From contig JAKCEB010000003.1 in assembly GCA_021838305.1 (NCBI GenBank), positions 1 to 42,968 on the forward strand: DNA of 42,968 nucleotides, read 5' to 3'. The stretch's first letter is position 1, and each line of letters starts with the position of its first letter. A model generated the notes under the pieces. It did not search any database. It was not told the origin of the DNA and saw only the letters and a list, made by a program, of their open reading frames with translations. Shown in pieces: positions 532 to 31,793 of this stretch. Both the position numbers and the translations under genes were made by a program. Origin of the DNA: Actinomycetes bacterium (GTDB lineage: Bacteria; Actinomycetota; Acidimicrobiia; Acidimicrobiales; Palsa-688).

Positions 532-623
532 CGTGGACCGGCGGCGGGCTGCATTAGCGGCTTTTGCGGCTATCGGGTCGGCCAGCTACTAGCGGAAATA
601 CGACATGGCGCCTTCCTGGAGCA

Positions 624-670
624 GACTGTGCGTGTAATTGCACGAAAACTGTGCAATAACACGCACAGTC
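624..670. repeat. Long inverted repeat (20-bp stem, 7-nt loop)
   Basis: Bases 624-643 and 651-670 are reverse complements except for one A-A mismatch (636/658), leaving a 7-nt loop (GAAAACT). It lies between the convergent monooxygenase and glgA genes, so a bidirectional terminator is possible, but no T-run follows the stem on the plus strand. Its size is close to that of the hairpin at 30974-31022, though the stem sequences differ. Confidence 0.8.
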
Positions 671-672
671 TT

Positions 673-6995: not shown

Positions 6996-8860
6996 GAACC
7001 AGAGGCAACTTTTTTCAAAGTGTCTGCCAGCAGGACAGAAAATGACGACTGCGTCGCGGTCGTCCCCGGACCCGGGTCGGCGTTTAGCACGTAGCGCAAA
7101 TGTCCACCGGGTCCGATGATCGCCACGAACTCGCTGTGGCCGATCATTGCGCCGCCGGGGGACAACTCGGTTGCATTGCCGAATGCCGACCAAACGCCTT
7201 CAAGGTCGTGGAGCGTCTTTCCGGTCAGGAACTTCCAATTGGGAAGCGACGCCATTTTCTCTTGGACGTCGAAAGCCTGCAGATAGTCGGGAGCCACGAA
7301 GATCGGGTTGGCGTTGACAGCAACCAACTCGACTTGCGCCGCGGTCGCCCCGAGCAGGCCGTCTGCTTGACGGAAGTACTGGGCGATCAGCGGACAGGTG
7401 GAGGTGCAGACGTCATCGAGAAATGTGAGAGCCACCGTCTTGCCTCTAAGCGTTGCGGAGCTGACCGGCGATCCCGTCTGGTCGATCAACTGAAACGACG
7501 GCGAGGGTGCGTACTCTTGCTGAGGCGGCCCCGCCACCGCCTGAGCGAGGATCGCGTCGGCGTTTGGGTTCGTTGCGGCCGCCGCCGCAGGAACGGTGCC
7601 TACCAGCACCACGGCGATAGCAGCGACAGATGCGGCCACCCGCAGTGCGTACGTCGGATCCAAAGCGAGGCGGGCAAACGGCGACCTGACGGCGACGTCC
7701 GGGCCTTGGACAGAGGCAGCCTCGAACGACACACGAGGAGCGGGCCGGGTGAACGCCAGGTATCCCGCGAAGAGGATTACGAGGGTCGGGATCATCGAGT
7801 TCGGGTCCGTACCTACGCCTCCAAGGAAGCCCAGATCCTCGATGAGAAGCCAGTCGGCGAGCAACAGGACTACGGCGGCGGCGAGGCCAGCACGAAGAAG
7901 GAGAGGCCTGCCTGAGAGGAACACGACTCCGAGGGCACCGATCGCCACGACGGCGAACAGGTTCACCCCCCAACCGTGCGAAGCGTCGAAGCTTGCGAAC
8001 GCCGAAACGGCGCTAGCGATGGCGTGTGGCTGTGGCGTGGAGGCCATGTGGCGAACCATCGACGCGAGCTGTCCGGCGGTGCCGTTCGCCAGAGTAGGAC
8101 CGGCCCAGAAGCCGCGTCCGGGCCAGGCTTGAAGAACCGCCATCGCAACAAGAAACGACCCCATGCAGCGGAGCATGAACCGGCCTGTCCGAGCCCGCTC
8201 CCAAAACTCGTCAGGCAGGGCAATCAGCACACCTGCAACAGAGTAGAAAAGAGCGGCCCCCGGGAGTCCGAAGAGGAACGACTGGCCCGGTGCGAAGATC
8301 TGCCCGAACGCTTCGCCGAAGATCCATACGACCAGGCCCCACCCGACGCTCAGCACACCCGCGAGCCGCGACCACAGTCCTCTCGGTGCGACGAGAAGCC
8401 AAAGTCCGATTCCGACCTGCACCCACACGGCCGCGGCGGGTGCTGTGATCGGGTGGTAGCTCCAGATCGTTGCGAGTTGATTGTCGAGGTGTTGCACCCA
8501 CGTCGGCGACGAGGCCGCCGCGGGCTGGATGACGTTGGGAGCCATTCCGAGCGGGATCGAGGCCTGGCCTTGGAGGATCCCGTCGAAAATCCACAGGATG
8601 CCGAACGACAGGCGAAGAAGGCGGCGGGCGGCAGGCTCGGTCGATGCTGTCGCAGTTTCGCGGGGCGCCGCTGCGGTTCCACCGGGCGCCGCTGTGGACT
8701 CAGCGTAGGCCCGCAGACGGCGGGCTCGCAGGACGTTCCAGGCGACCCAGAGCACCGCCAGGACGACCAGGCAGACAAGGCCCTGGCGTAGGAGCAGGCG
8801 GTGAAATGCCGTGACGATGAGCGAGTTGGTGGCAGCGAGGCCGGTGTTCATGCCTGGCAT
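6992..8860 (-). CDS. Multi-pass membrane protein with C-terminal Sco1/SenC-like thioredoxin domain
   Basis: About 622 residues (ATG 8860; a GTG at 8941 would add 27 residues). The first two thirds hold many hydrophobic segments, for example LVCLVVLAVLWVAWNVL, ALFYSVAGVLIAL and AAVVLLLADWLLI. The C-terminal part is an extracytoplasmic thioredoxin-fold domain starting at about FQLIDQTGSPVS. It has the Sco signature C-x3-C in DDVCTSTCPL and a downstream GHSEFVAIIGPGG histidine, the three copper ligands of Sco proteins. Sco proteins deliver copper to, or reduce, the CuA site of cytochrome oxidase. Fusion to such a large membrane module is unusual. It is followed, with overlap, by a lipoprotein gene. 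No oxidase genes are in the window. Confidence 0.8.
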   Translation of the reverse strand: MPGMNTGLAATNSLIVTAFHRLLLRQGLVCLVVLAVLWVAWNVLRARRLRAYAESTAAPGGTAAAPRETATASTEPAARRLLRLSFGILWIFDGILQGQASIPLGMAPNVIQPAAASSPTWVQHLDNQLATIWSYHPITAPAAAVWVQVGIGLWLLVAPRGLWSRLAGVLSVGWGLVVWIFGEAFGQIFAPGQSFLFGLPGAALFYSVAGVLIALPDEFWERARTGRFMLRCMGSFLVAMAVLQAWPGRGFWAGPTLANGTAGQLASMVRHMASTPQPHAIASAVSAFASFDASHGWGVNLFAVVAIGALGVVFLSGRPLLLRAGLAAAVVLLLADWLLIEDLGFLGGVGTDPNSMIPTLVILFAGYLAFTRPAPRVSFEAASVQGPDVAVRSPFARLALDPTYALRVAASVAAIAVVLVGTVPAAAAATNPNADAILAQAVAGPPQQEYAPSPSFQLIDQTGSPVSSATLRGKTVALTFLDDVCTSTCPLIAQYFRQADGLLGATAAQVELVAVNANPIFVAPDYLQAFDVQEKMASLPNWKFLTGKTLHDLEGVWSAFGNATELSPGGAMIGHSEFVAIIGPGGHLRYVLNADPGPGTTATQSSFSVLLADTLKKVASGS

Positions 8861-20260: not shown

Positions 20261-21982
20261 ATGACTACGATCGGCCGCGATCGCTACGCCGATTTGTACG
20301 GCCCAACTTTGGGTGACCGCATAAGGCTGGCCGACACTGACTTGCTGATAGAGGTCAGTGAGGATCGCTGCGGAGGTCCCGGGCTCGCCGGCGACGAGGC
20401 GGTATTCGGCGGAGGCAAAGTCATCCGGGAATCCATGGGCCAGGGAAGCATGACCCGCCTAGCAGGCGCTCCGGACCTGGTGATAACCGGCGCGGTCATC
20501 CTCGACCATTGGGGAGTAGTAAAGGCAGACGTCGGGGTGCGCGACGGGCGCATCGTCGGTATCGGCAAGGCGGGAAACCCCGACGTGATGGATGCCGTAA
20601 CGCCAGGGCTCGAGATCGGTCCGTCGACAGAGATAATCGCCGGGAACGGCAAGATTCTCACAGCCGGGGTCATCGACTGTCATGTTCATCTCATCTGTCC
20701 CCAGATCCTCGAGGAGGGTCTTTCGGCTGGGGTCACCACCGTTATCGGAGGAGGAACAGGTCCAGCTGAGGGCACGAAGGCTACGACCGTAACCCCGGGG
20801 GCGTGGTGGCTTGCGAGGATGCTCGAGGCTCTCGACGACTGGCCAGTAAACGTCCTGTTGCTTGGCAAGGGCAACACAGTCTCCGAAGAGGGCCTGTGGG
20901 AGCAGCTTCGAGCTGGAGCTGCGGGCTTCAAACTTCACGAAGACTGGGGAACCACACCGGCAGCCATCGACGCCTGCCTCAAGGTTTGCGACGCTGCCGG
21001 AGTCCAAGCGGCTATCCACACCGACACTCTCAACGAAGCCGGCTTTGTTGAGTCTACCCTCGATGCAATCGCCGGCCGCGTGATTCACGCCTATCACACT
21101 GAGGGTGCAGGGGGCGGTCACGCCCCGGACATCATCCGGGTCGCCGGCGAGCTCAATGTCCTGCCCTCGTCTACAAACCCGACCCGCCCGCACACGATCA
21201 ATACCATCGATGAGCATCTCGACATGCTGATGGTGTGCCATCACCTAAATCCGAATGTCGCGGAAGACCTCGCATTTGCTGAAAGCCGCATCCGACCGTC
21301 GACGATCGCCGCCGAGGATCTCCTCCACGATCTGGGGGCTATCTCCATGATCGGCTCGGACTCACAGGCAATGGGACGTATCGGCGAAGTGGCTCTGCGG
21401 ACCTGGCAAACCGCGCATGCAGCAAAACAACGTTGGGGATCGCTGCCCGGCGATGGTCGGGCTGACAACGTCCGGGCTCAGCGATACATCGCCAAGTACA
21501 CTATCTGCCCGGCGGTCGCACATGGAATCGACTTGGACGTCGGGTCGGTGCAAGTCGGCAAGATGGCAGATCTCGTCTTGTATCATCCTGCATGGTTCGC
21601 AGTGCGGCCTTCGCTCGTCATCAAAGGCGGGGTTATCGCTCGAGCCGCAATGGGCGATGCGAACGCATCTATTCCAACACCGCAACCGGTTTGGTCGCGC
21701 CCAATGTTCGGGTCACACCCGAAAGTAGCTGGTGCGACCTCAGTGGCGTTTGTCGCACTAGCTGCAATTGAAGATGGGCTGCAGGATCGACTCGCAGTTA
21801 GGCGAAGCCTTGTGGCGGTCCGTGACACCCGCCGACTCTCGAAGGAGGATCTTCCCAACAATACGGCCCGGCCGGAAATCCTTGTCGATCCGGACACCTT
21901 CCAGGTACGGGTGGATGGGACAGTCGTGACCGAGCAGCCGGCGACCGAACTGCCAATGGCTCAGCGCTACTTCCTGTTCTAG
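20261..21982 (+). CDS. ureC: Urease alpha (catalytic) subunit
   Basis: 573-residue amidohydrolase that converts urea to ammonia and carbamate with two nickel ions. All ligands are present at a constant offset of +7 from the Klebsiella numbering: H141 and H143 ([10 protein letters not shown]), K224 to be carbamylated with H226 nearby (GFKLHEDWG), H253 ([10 protein letters not shown]), H279 and D367 (GSDSQAMGR). The flap motif VCHHLN carries C326 and H327. The protein is full length and looks active. It is followed after 23 bp by ureF. The upstream guanidinase reaction would supply its substrate from inside the cell. Confidence 0.98.
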
Positions 21983-29174: not shown

Positions 29175-30536
29175 ATGGGTAAGCGCAACAGGGAGCGACG
29201 CGAGGCGAAGAAGCGCCAGAAGGACTTGCGCCGGAGCCGGTCCCGGCTGGGGGGTAGCCCTGATTGGGAATCCGCTGGCGTCGAGGGGTCTGCGAGTCGA
29301 GGACGGCCAGACTTTCGCTCGATCCTCCTGACTTACGGCCGAGCGTTCGGTGTCGCGGAGGCCGCCGAACTGCTTCCCGGCTTGGAGTCTGCGCTGCTAC
29401 ACGAGGCTTCGATGGTCGGCAGGGCTGCGGCGTCGCTCGTGTATGGAACGGTAGTGGGCGAGTGCTTGGCCGCGGTCTGGGAAGGCGGATGGCAACCGGG
29501 GGAAGTGTCGCGAGTGGTCAGGCGGAGATTGACCGTCCGCCACGCCGATCTTCTCGCCACCGCCTTCGCTGCCTACAATTGGCCGAAAGCTCAGATGCCC
29601 CCAAGGTGGGCCGCTCAACTCAGCGAGCTTAGTGCCACCGAGCGTGCCCCAGGATCGGACCAAGCATGGCTGACAAGCTGGGCGGACGCTGCGGGCCTCG
29701 ACTGGCCGGAAGCACTGATAGCAGGGGCGCAACTCCTCGGAGTCGTCTCGGTCCTGCATCGGCTCGAACCATTGATCGCGAGACCTTCGCAGTGGTCCGA
29801 GCACGCCGGGACGACCGGGCCGAGCGGTCTGGTAGACGAGTCTGTCCTGGCCAAAGTAAGGGCGCTTCTAGCAAAAGCTGAATCCACTACTTTCGAGGAA
29901 GAAGCCAATGCCCTCACTGCCAAGGCGCAAGAGCTCATCTCCCGGCACGCTATTGACGATGCGCTTGCGCAGGGCGCTGGCCATCAACCGCGCGAGGTCC
30001 CGCGCGCCCAGAGGATATGGGTGGACGATCCTTACGCTTCCGCCAAGGGGCAGCTCCTCGCAGTAGTGGGAGCGTCCAATCGCGCCCGTGTCATTTGGGA
30101 CGCTACCTACGGCTATATGAGCGTCGTAGGTTTCGAGTCGGACCTGGAGGCAGTCGAGATACTTTTCACGTCACTCCTCGTGCAGGCGTCGCACGCCATG
30201 CTGGCCCGAGGGAAAGTGTCGGACGAACGAGGCCGCTCCAGGACTAGATCGTTCCGTCAGTCTTTCTATCTGGCTTTTGCTAGCCGAATTCACGAAAGGT
30301 TGTCGGCGGCCAGCCGGGAGGCGGCAACTCAAGCGTCCGCTGACCTGGGTCGAGAGGTGCTGCCGGTGCTTGCGAGCCGCCAGGATGATGTCGACGCAGC
30401 CATGAAGAGGATGTTCCCTTCGGTACGCACGATGGCAGGCCCGGCAGCCAGCAATGCCGAAGGTTGGAACGCTGGTCGAGTCGCCGCTGAGATGGCGTCA
30501 CTCGGCCCGAAACACGAGGAACTCGCGACTTCGTAG
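29175..30536 (+). CDS. DUF2786-domain protein
   Basis: 453 residues from ATG 29175, just after GGAGG. A basic N-terminus (GKRNRERREAKKRQKDLRRS) leads to a helical region. The DUF2786 signature VLAKVRALLAKAESTTFEEE, followed by ANALTAKAQELISRHAID, sits near residue 230. The C-terminal half matches the pattern usually found with DUF2786 (the GYMSVVGFESDLEAVEILFT region). Function is unknown in the family. The basic start suggests nucleic-acid binding. It diverges from tRNA-Ser. Confidence 0.85.
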   Translation: MGKRNRERREAKKRQKDLRRSRSRLGGSPDWESAGVEGSASRGRPDFRSILLTYGRAFGVAEAAELLPGLESALLHEASMVGRAAASLVYGTVVGECLAAVWEGGWQPGEVSRVVRRRLTVRHADLLATAFAAYNWPKAQMPPRWAAQLSELSATERAPGSDQAWLTSWADAAGLDWPEALIAGAQLLGVVSVLHRLEPLIARPSQWSEHAGTTGPSGLVDESVLAKVRALLAKAESTTFEEEANALTAKAQELISRHAIDDALAQGAGHQPREVPRAQRIWVDDPYASAKGQLLAVVGASNRARVIWDATYGYMSVVGFESDLEAVEILFTSLLVQASHAMLARGKVSDERGRSRTRSFRQSFYLAFASRIHERLSAASREAATQASADLGREVLPVLASRQDDVDAAMKRMFPSVRTMAGPAASNAEGWNAGRVAAEMASLGPKHEELATS

Positions 30537-30602
30537 GCGGCTTCAAGGAATGTCGGCCGTCCCCGTCCTGAAGGGCTAGCGGCTACCCACTACCGTTAGT
30601 CG

Positions 30603-30857
30603 CTAGGTCTCGGGCAGGCGGTCGGGCTGGGCGCCCCGATTCAGCGAGCAACCCTGACGGTGATAGCCGCCGTCACACATCGAGCCGCATTCCGGACAAA
30701 GTAATCCGGCCCAGCACGCTGGGTCGCCGGCTTCGGTGGTTGCTTCGGGGTTGCCGCGCTCCCGTAGAATCGACGCTACGTCTGTGCTGTCGGGCCGCAT
30801 CCCCGAATGGGCACCGCTGCTCAGATGCCGACGATCCTTGACGGGAGGGCCATCCAC
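30603..30857 (-). CDS. Small cysteine-rich protein, possible zinc ribbon
   Basis: 84 residues from GTG 30857. The C-terminal half has CPECGSMCDGGYHRQGC, which could bind one zinc ion through Cys and His ligands; an upstream CWAGLLC adds cysteines. I do not recognise a family. The reading frame is short, but the spacing of the Cys/His residues is unlikely in a random frame. Confidence 0.45.
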   Translation of the reverse strand: MDGPPVKDRRHLSSGAHSGMRPDSTDVASILRERGNPEATTEAGDPACWAGLLCPECGSMCDGGYHRQGCSLNRGAQPDRLPET

Positions 30858-30973
30858 GCGCTGACTATACCGAGTCTCGTCTCGCTGAATCAGTGCCGCC
30901 CAGATCTTTTTGCTGGGTGAGCGGGTTCGTTGCAGATTCAGCCCTGAATCCCCTCGTCGCGCTTGGCGAGATC

Positions 30974-31022
30974 ATAGATTGGTACTTTATACAGCTATAG
31001 ACTGTATAAAGTACCAATCTAT
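30974..31022. repeat. Perfect 21-bp inverted repeat with 7-nt loop in an AT-rich island
   Basis: Left arm 30974-30994 and right arm 31002-31022 are exact reverse complements (the left arm begins ATAGATTGGTACTTTATACA), enclosing CTATAGA. Base composition from about 30960 to 31090 is far more AT-rich than the surroundings. A 23-residue basic reading frame (31024-31095, MELKQKRLKWH start) follows directly. It may be a transcription terminator, a mobile-element end or a folded RNA element. Confidence 0.85.
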
Positions 31023-31103
31023 CATGGAGTTAAAGCAGAAGCGACTTAAGTGGCACACAAATAGAAGAGCTCTCGGATTTCGGCGGCAGGGTTAAGCCTT
31101 CAG

Positions 31104-31793
31104 TCAGCTGTCCCCGCTCGCGTCCCACGTGTTCCAGTACGTGAGGGACTCGACCGGCGGTCGCGACGCCGGTTTGAAGGCGTTGCCGACCGTATAGGCC
31201 ACGGGAAGCAGCGCGACTTGGGTGACGGAATCGTACGGGATGCCGAGCACCTCGGCCGCCTCGCGCTCTTTCACGAGATGAAGCGTCGTCCATGCAGAGC
31301 CGAGCCCACGGGAGCGCAGGGCGAGCATGAAGCTCCAAACGGCAGGGAGGATCGATCCGTAGATCGAAGCGGACATGGCGTTGACGGTGCTCTCCGCTCG
31401 GCCCTGGATGCACGGCACCACGTGCACCGGAACCTTCTCGAGGGTTTCGGTCAGGTGGATGGCGCTCTCGTAGACACGCTTGGTCTGTGGATCCATCGCT
31501 TGCGACGCGGATGCCCTCAGGTAACCTTCGCCCCCTTCCCGGTAGAGGCGGGCGAGTTCTCGGCGCTTGTCGGCGTCGGTGACAACCATCCACCGCCAAC
31601 CCTGCGAGTTGCTGCCCGTAGGGGCTTGCACCGCCAGGCGCAGGCACTCGAGCAGCATCTCAGCCGGTACTGGTCGGTCGAGGTCTAGGCGCTTGCGGAC
31701 CGACCGCGTGGTCGATAGGAGCCTGTCCGTTACCGCCAGGTCGAACGGCGGGGAGGATGGCGCAGCGGAGGACAGGTCTGGTTCGTAAGTCAA
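31104..31793 (-). CDS. Nitroreductase-family flavoprotein
   Basis: 229 residues from TTG 31793, whose codon overlaps the pheA stop (TTGA) and follows GGGGGGAA. FMN-dependent family features are TTRSVRKRLDLDRPVP (phosphate-binding SxR region), LAVQAPTGSNSQGWRWMVVT, and the C-terminal GSAWTTLHLVKEREAAEVLG followed by VALLPVAY. Such enzymes reduce nitro compounds, quinones or other electron acceptors. Coupling to pheA suggests a shared transcript. The substrate is unknown. Confidence 0.9.
   Translation of the reverse strand: MTYEPDLSSAAPSSPPFDLAVTDRLLSTTRSVRKRLDLDRPVPAEMLLECLRLAVQAPTGSNSQGWRWMVVTDADKRRELARLYREGGEGYLRASASQAMDPQTKRVYESAIHLTETLEKVPVHVVPCIQGRAESTVNAMSASIYGSILPAVWSFMLALRSRGLGSAWTTLHLVKEREAAEVLGIPYDSVTQVALLPVAYTVGNAFKPASRPPVESLTYWNTWDASGDS

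Follow-up and report, generated by a model that had tools for sequence, protein, structure and literature searches.

The locus studied here raises the question of what a perfect palindrome, with two 21-bp arms around a 7-bp centre, represents when it lies between two genes of an Actinomycetes bacterium. It was encountered in a stretch of 42,968 nucleotides, hereafter the window, which is contig C265 of an assembly of 2.81 Mb in 274 contigs (G000; 77.1% complete, 5.04% contamination). The original prediction had described an AT-rich island with an exact hairpin and a tiny basic reading frame, and had proposed recent acquisition, with a mobile-element end, a structured RNA or a terminator as possible identities. 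Based on the results presented below we favour, with moderate confidence, the reading that the hairpin belongs to a family of small palindromic repeats, dispersed between genes, non-autonomous and mobile, which resemble REP sequences in their behaviour. The features of the window that are relevant to this reading are collected in Table 1.

Table 1. Coordinates of the palindromes and of the adjoining reading frame in the window.
Feature	Position	Strand	Remarks
49-bp palindrome, subfamily A copy	30974..31022	-	Perfect arms, 21+7+21; scores 78.5 bits with covariance model R1; reads in canonical orientation, with centre TCTATAG, on the minus strand
Left arm, ATAGATTGGTACTTTATACAG	30974..30994	+	
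7-bp centre	30995..31001		CTATAGA on +, TCTATAG on -
Right arm, CTGTATAAAGTACCAATCTAT	31002..31022	+	
23-codon open frame, MELKQKRLKWHTNRRALGFRRQG	31024..31095	+	Judged chance, outside the element
Family N palindrome	623..671	+	21+7+21, one arm mismatch, sequence unrelated to A/B

The hairpin and the frame beside it

The hairpin is real and far beyond chance, and it stands out from its surroundings as claimed. RNA folding of positions 30964-31034 gave -31.9 kcal/mol (z = -8.65), with 0 of 200 dinucleotide shuffles as good, and in a first census of hairpins, covering 259 kb in 21 stretches including the window, it scored 21, against a maximum of 12 in the single Markov-randomised copy that served as control. 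When one mismatch is allowed, arm pairing reaches 30971-31025. A second census took in 41 stretches (627 kb) under a slightly modified score and without a randomised control; many of the added stretches came from contigs already known to bear copies, which enriches the sample. Here all 12 hairpins scoring at least 15 belonged to one of two repeat families, termed A/B and N, to which the two palindromes of Table 1 belong, respectively.

The GC-poor island shrinks to little more than the hairpin: GC is 0.286 over the palindrome and 0.633 over the whole window, and it stands at 0.581 over 30900-30973, before the palindrome, and at 0.50 over the 76 bases that follow (31023-31098). The AT-richness of the locus is, in consequence, mostly the palindrome's own composition. 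The short basic frame does exist, but a run of 23 codons is in itself ordinary. Since the flank that bears it is not common to other copies beyond shuffled controls, and no Shine-Dalgarno-like stretch is visible by eye in the 20 bases upstream of its ATG, we judge it a chance frame and not a component of the element. Rfam, at its gathering score, returned nothing at the palindrome; its matches in the window, tRNA and RF02514 (5' ureB sRNA), lie elsewhere, and the latter (20424-20715, minus strand; 48.1 bits, cut-off 40) perhaps reflects coding-sequence homology only.

Nine copies in two subfamilies

The palindrome has nine copies in the assembly, namely, six of subfamily A (on contigs C265, C56, C107, C257, C194 and C272) and three of subfamily B (on C260, C69 and C109). 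Seven of them were recovered by DNA search and all nine by a 16-base arm pattern with up to three mismatches; covariance model R1, built from ten copies with that of the window among them, recovered the same nine. The search for further copies suggested at the outset was thus productive, and it also extended to G006, a genome of the same family and another genus, which has two copies, one of them decayed. In 9 of 9 copies in G000 the arm matches of the 16-base pattern start 23 bases apart, and hence the centre measures 7 bp in every one; ten 49-base rows align without gaps (alignment A1). When the copies are turned to a common orientation, most have [GT]CTATAG or a close variant as the centre, whose sequence varies within the family. 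Of the 42 arm positions, 0-6 differ between A copies; among the B copies, of which three come from G000 and one from G006, the range is 2-9, and between A and B it is 7-13.

In the A/B alignment, standard pairing holds in 91.9% of 210 cells, and at five pairs both sides have changed. The covariation score exceeded all 500 shuffles, whereas the number of pairs changed on both sides was matched by 11 of 500 and that of further pair types by 385 of 500; two of the five measures used were not clear of the shuffles, which leave the relatedness of the copies in, and the contrast between A and B accounts for much of the covariation. Certain arm mismatches have been inherited, as at pair 20-30 in three B copies, which implies that the arms are not matched anew at each copying.

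These copies do not support the idea of a mobile-element end. In all nine the arms form a closed pair with 7 bp between them, the G000 assembly contains no unpaired arm at 0-2 mismatches, and the one isolated arm found with up to three (on C163, three mismatches) is at the level of the reversed-pattern control, which gave one forward and two reverse matches. Flank similarity above shuffled controls was absent within 200 bp of the copies, as was, by eye, any target-site duplication. The A copies are edged by TA, save for the decayed side of the C194 copy, and subfamily B is without this border; the TA could be part of the arm.

Genomic context

All nine G000 copies are centred outside called genes, in a genome of which about 15%, as sampled, is non-coding according to gene calls from a simple codon-usage script rather than a standard caller. 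Overlaps with gene ends are limited to 9 bp at C109, in the last codons, and 3 bp at C194. The neighbours in the window encode a nitroreductase and a DUF2786 protein; around the remaining copies are leucyl-tRNA synthetase and an AbiEi-like protein; a Na/Ca exchanger and an ABC-2 protein; an SDR and a DHDPS family protein; a Glycos_transf_3 (phosphorylase-type) protein and AsnC; an endonuclease/phosphatase-family protein; a sigma factor and ribosomal protein S2; a weakly matched P-loop protein and VapBC-like genes; and an SDR and an unassigned protein. A regulon was considered and rejected, as the neighbours scanned are unrelated and without common function.

The orientation of the A/B centre relative to genes is mixed, and 2 of the 11 A/B copies (C69 and G006:C8:1708) lie between divergent neighbours. 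Counting both families, convergent neighbours were found at 9 of 26 classified G000 copies and at 28 of 214 intergenic regions of at least 60 bp (p = 0.004), with C56 and C194 reclassified by hand. This count falls to 8 of 26 (p = 0.015) if an 84-codon frame at 30603-30857 (minus strand) is a gene, in which case the neighbours of the window palindrome are codirectional, not convergent. The frame in question contains CPECGSMC, and part of this stretch has a 75% match to the congener G001.

A second family of the same geometry

Family N occupies 26 places in G000, that of the window among them (23, two further ones and one at C107:21338), and one more in G006; judging from their nearly identical flanks, the copies on C121 and C105 may be one locus. 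For 24 of the 26, each arm is matched with at most two mismatches and the start-to-start distance is a constant 26 bases; the remaining two places retain a diverged second arm. An alignment of 25 rows and 49 columns has 94.6% of 504 cells paired, nine pairs changed on both sides and 17 further pair types, and all five covariation measures exceed all 500 shuffles. With 11 G-U cells, 27 unpaired and 19 changed on both sides among the 504, there is no obvious excess of G-U, a pattern that by rough reckoning leans to double-stranded DNA symmetry over RNA pairing.

Some N copies have flanking sequence in common, about TAGCGGGAATGCGACATC before and CGAATTGCGGCAATT after the palindrome, and N may for this reason be a portion of a longer element of roughly 150 bp. 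Short tandem repeats, with a period of at least 4, were present no more than 200 bp away at 15 of 24 N loci (labelled L171-L193, L197, L208 and window 623 in this comparison), at 2 of 9 A/B copies and at 23 of 92 control intergenic regions. Two N copies are found downstream of tRNA genes, at 38 bp from tRNA-Leu (L172 2035-2083, on C179) and at 86 bp from tRNA-Arg (L173 1979-2027, on C1), and another, L188, overlaps a called gene start by 21 bp.

Distribution among other genomes

Among 32 genomes of the family, the covariance model found the A/B palindrome in two, G000 and G006, with no match in either congener or in the remaining 28; for 16 of these genomes, G000 included, scoring covered the best 150 candidates. 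Within a sample of 397 genomes of the order, matches were obtained in G000, G006 and G127, the last being a partial match inside a 212-codon frame that we take as chance. A DNA search for N in the 32 family genomes also pointed to G000 and G006, to which the arm pattern added one isolated match with two mismatches in G007, and in the order sample N was found in the same two carriers as A/B. Since few candidates per genome were scored in the order-wide searches, which listed 2 of the 9 A/B and 2 of the 26 N copies of G000 itself, copies that have diverged may have escaped notice in other genomes. That A/B and N occur together in the same two genomes suggests one cause.

The good B copy of G006 lies at C8:946-994 and the decayed one, in the same orientation, at C8:1708-1756 (26.6 bits). 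The two contigs that carry the palindromes of this genome are short, at 7,835 and 4,010 bases, and their tetranucleotide composition is intermediate; the fraction of G006 fragments as G000-like came to 0.125 and 0.118, and that of G000 fragments as G006-like to 0.05 and 0.0. It is thus possible that these contigs are misbinned or horizontally acquired DNA. Within 946-2926 of C8 (L033), a ParD-like antitoxin gene and a P-loop frame of 86 codons lie between the two B palindromes, which are separated by about 760 bp; this frame contains GPNGAGKSTL and looks zeta-like by eye. Beyond them come a weak match of Xre/ParS type and a frame judged RES-like by eye, and the 51 bp at 998-1048 recur at 2243-2293.

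Phage and plasmid records had no match to the A palindrome, and plasmids none to N. Three viral-contig loci retrieved with A-type patterns were discarded as look-alikes with different surroundings, one of them being unrelated AT-rich DNA; viral contigs gave no loci for N. A scan of genome contigs for the palindrome gave seven loci, with an Actinomycetes MAG contig as the sole relative. Long hairpins of other sequence do exist in G001 (best score 15) and in G006, for instance at 11830-11881 of L243 on C5, where perfect 21-bp arms enclose 10 nt and the sequence bears no relation to A/B or N, and long hairpins as such are therefore not peculiar to G000.

In G001 the region matching this locus has retained the nitroreductase together with a portion of the frame that follows, and it lacks the palindrome; the distance between the aligned DNA blocks, the measure used for this locus, is 266 bp shorter than in the window. 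Comparing spacers by residue-matched differences, at the 5 of 9 A/B loci, 3 of 9 N loci and 6 of 10 controls (drawn from 23 candidates) with usable synteny, the excess over the congener was 266, 139, 289, 352 and 29 bp for A/B and 149, 261 and 60 bp for N, whereas the control pairs differed by 34, -31, 11, 1, 21 and 76 bp. The medians are about 205 bp for the eight palindrome loci and 16 bp for the six controls (Mann-Whitney p = 0.005), all of these comparisons resting on two congener genomes. A clean empty site was seen in none of the congener regions aligned (those of the window, C194, C260, C257, C272 and three N loci), and the extra DNA, mostly longer than 49 bp, does not align to the congener. 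Given that this DNA exceeds the palindrome and that no junction is clean, the comparison establishes spacer DNA particular to the species, and not insertion of the palindrome itself. In favour of the original suggestion, the palindrome is repeated, patchy and absent from the matching region of G001, and hence probably mobile or recently amplified; nor was the same sequence found at this locus as a plain terminator in all relatives.

Origin and possible function of the palindromes

The reading of a mobile repeat draws on multiple copies with lineage structure, unrelated flanks, intergenic placement and patchy presence, and it gains from family N, which has an identical geometry and was found, out of 397 genomes, in the same two. 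The palindrome has no gene of its own. It would most likely spread as DNA, in hairpin or palindromic form, through the action of an enzyme whose gene lies elsewhere. The constant arm spacing suggests a protein or enzyme that measures half-sites, and the trans-acting enzyme would recognise two inverted half-sites exactly 7 bp apart; family N would be spread by the same kind of machinery. The symmetry of the arms may be kept by selection or by template-switch repair of hairpins. Against mobility stand the lack of a clean empty site, of a target duplication and of a match to a Y1 transposase in this 77%-complete assembly, as well as the possible misbinning of the G006 copies and the inherited arm mismatches; an autonomous relative carrying A/B or N arms was not seen. 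A more tentative idea, which we hold as doubtful, is that A/B and N jointly mark one DNA-handling system, of the transposase/recombinase class but without the marks of REP transposases, which would read half-site geometry and keep its sites symmetric, so that families of new sequence would arise and spread.

Intergenic placement is also expected of binding sites, and the near-perfect dyad and constant arm spacing would suit a symmetric DNA-binding protein (regulator, nucleoid or segregation protein) whose sites are not mobile and whose two subunits are spaced by the centre. The common paired arm changes of N and its unremarkable G-U content, which by the rough reckoning above fit double-stranded DNA symmetry, point the same way. 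However, the A/B neighbours scanned share no function and orientation is mixed, the sites were not found in the congeners, and the linked differences between subfamilies resemble copy lineages rather than independently evolved sites, all of which renders this explanation rather unlikely. We consider it improbable that the palindromes act at the RNA level, as two-way terminators or transcript stabilisers behind genes: the enrichment of convergent neighbours and the very stable fold would be accounted for, but G-U cells show no obvious excess, centre orientation is mixed, and C69 and G006:C8:1708 lie between divergent genes. The terminator originally suggested is likewise disfavoured by these two copies, and no terminator-like site was found in 30500-31300.

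Two further explanations take the arms as parts of a recombination system. Sites of Cre, Flp and the lambda type have 6-8 bp between inverted arms, and the 21-7-21 geometry could accordingly denote lox-like sites of a tyrosine recombinase, with a 7-bp crossover, left singly after cassette loss, as the similarly oriented B pair around the ParD-like gene and P-loop frame of G006 might illustrate. Yet this is the only such pair among eleven A/B sites, no recombinase was found among the A/B neighbours scanned, and the centres vary within a family, which should hinder exchange; we see this as a distinctly improbable origin. Many transposon terminal repeats are of about the size of these arms, 21 bp, and the TA at the edges of the A copies other than the decayed side of C194 would also suit a minimal MITE, that is, the two terminal repeats of a cut-and-paste transposon whose inside was deleted. 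Against this, no full element was seen, both arms stand at fixed spacing in 9 of 9 A/B and 24 of 26 N places with a diverged second arm kept in the other two, target duplications were not visible by eye and B has no TA border, and we thus deem a minimal MITE highly improbable. The mobile repeat remains our preferred reading.

Comparison with known systems

In many bacteria the DNA between genes is shaped by small palindromic repeats, for whose spread REP elements with their transposases provide the best-worked candidate route. In this respect G000, with two unrelated families of one geometry, compensating changes in many copies and congeners in which neither family was found, offers a favourable natural setting in which to look for a further enzyme or binding protein behind such repeats; the moderate interest of A/B rests mainly on the second family. 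There is also a warning for annotation, namely, that such hairpins should not be read as terminators, nor the adjoining frames as genes.

The REP/RAYT (TnpA-REP) system is the nearest known kind in behaviour: like REPs and REPINs, A/B consists of short, dispersed intergenic palindromes in groups, presumably moved in trans. REPs are described as palindromes of 20-50 nt after a conserved tetranucleotide, those of group 3 being perfect in some cases (PMC8266576), and REPINs are miniature mobile DNA (PMC3116915). A/B does consist of repeated intergenic palindromic copies, although nine is low for REPs and not hundreds, and its 21-bp stem has a 7-bp centre. The tetranucleotide 5' of the stem, mostly GTAG in REPs, is absent, the flanks being unconserved by eye beyond the paired arms, and Y1 transposase (PF01797) has 0 matches in the 77% complete G000 assembly; the profile matches 8 of the 32 family genomes, in G006 once, over 36 profile positions. 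Because neither of these defining features was found, the second within the incomplete assembly, we do not file A/B as REP.

Other known kinds were set aside. An intrinsic terminator has a G+C-rich stem and a T-run, and here the GC of 0.286 goes with no T-run after the stem; a MITE of a DDE transposon was rejected as its terminal repeats were not found in a full transposon and no target-site duplication was seen by eye. The small dispersed repeats of Nostoc (cyanobacteria) are tiny and intergenic, 21-27 bp, and some adjoin short tandem repeats. Set beside A/B and N by description, they share nearby tandem repeats with N, where these are common, and not with A/B.

No description of such palindrome elements was found in the literature searched, and A/B is, on that literature, a real small repeat family that is apparently undescribed. 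A further likeness is to the SLS families, stem-loop-sharing repeats that were found by a genome census in a set of 40 genomes (PMC2267715). A/B resembles them in kind, as repeated sequences with a common stem-loop; what is special here is one fixed 21-7-21 geometry in two unrelated families.
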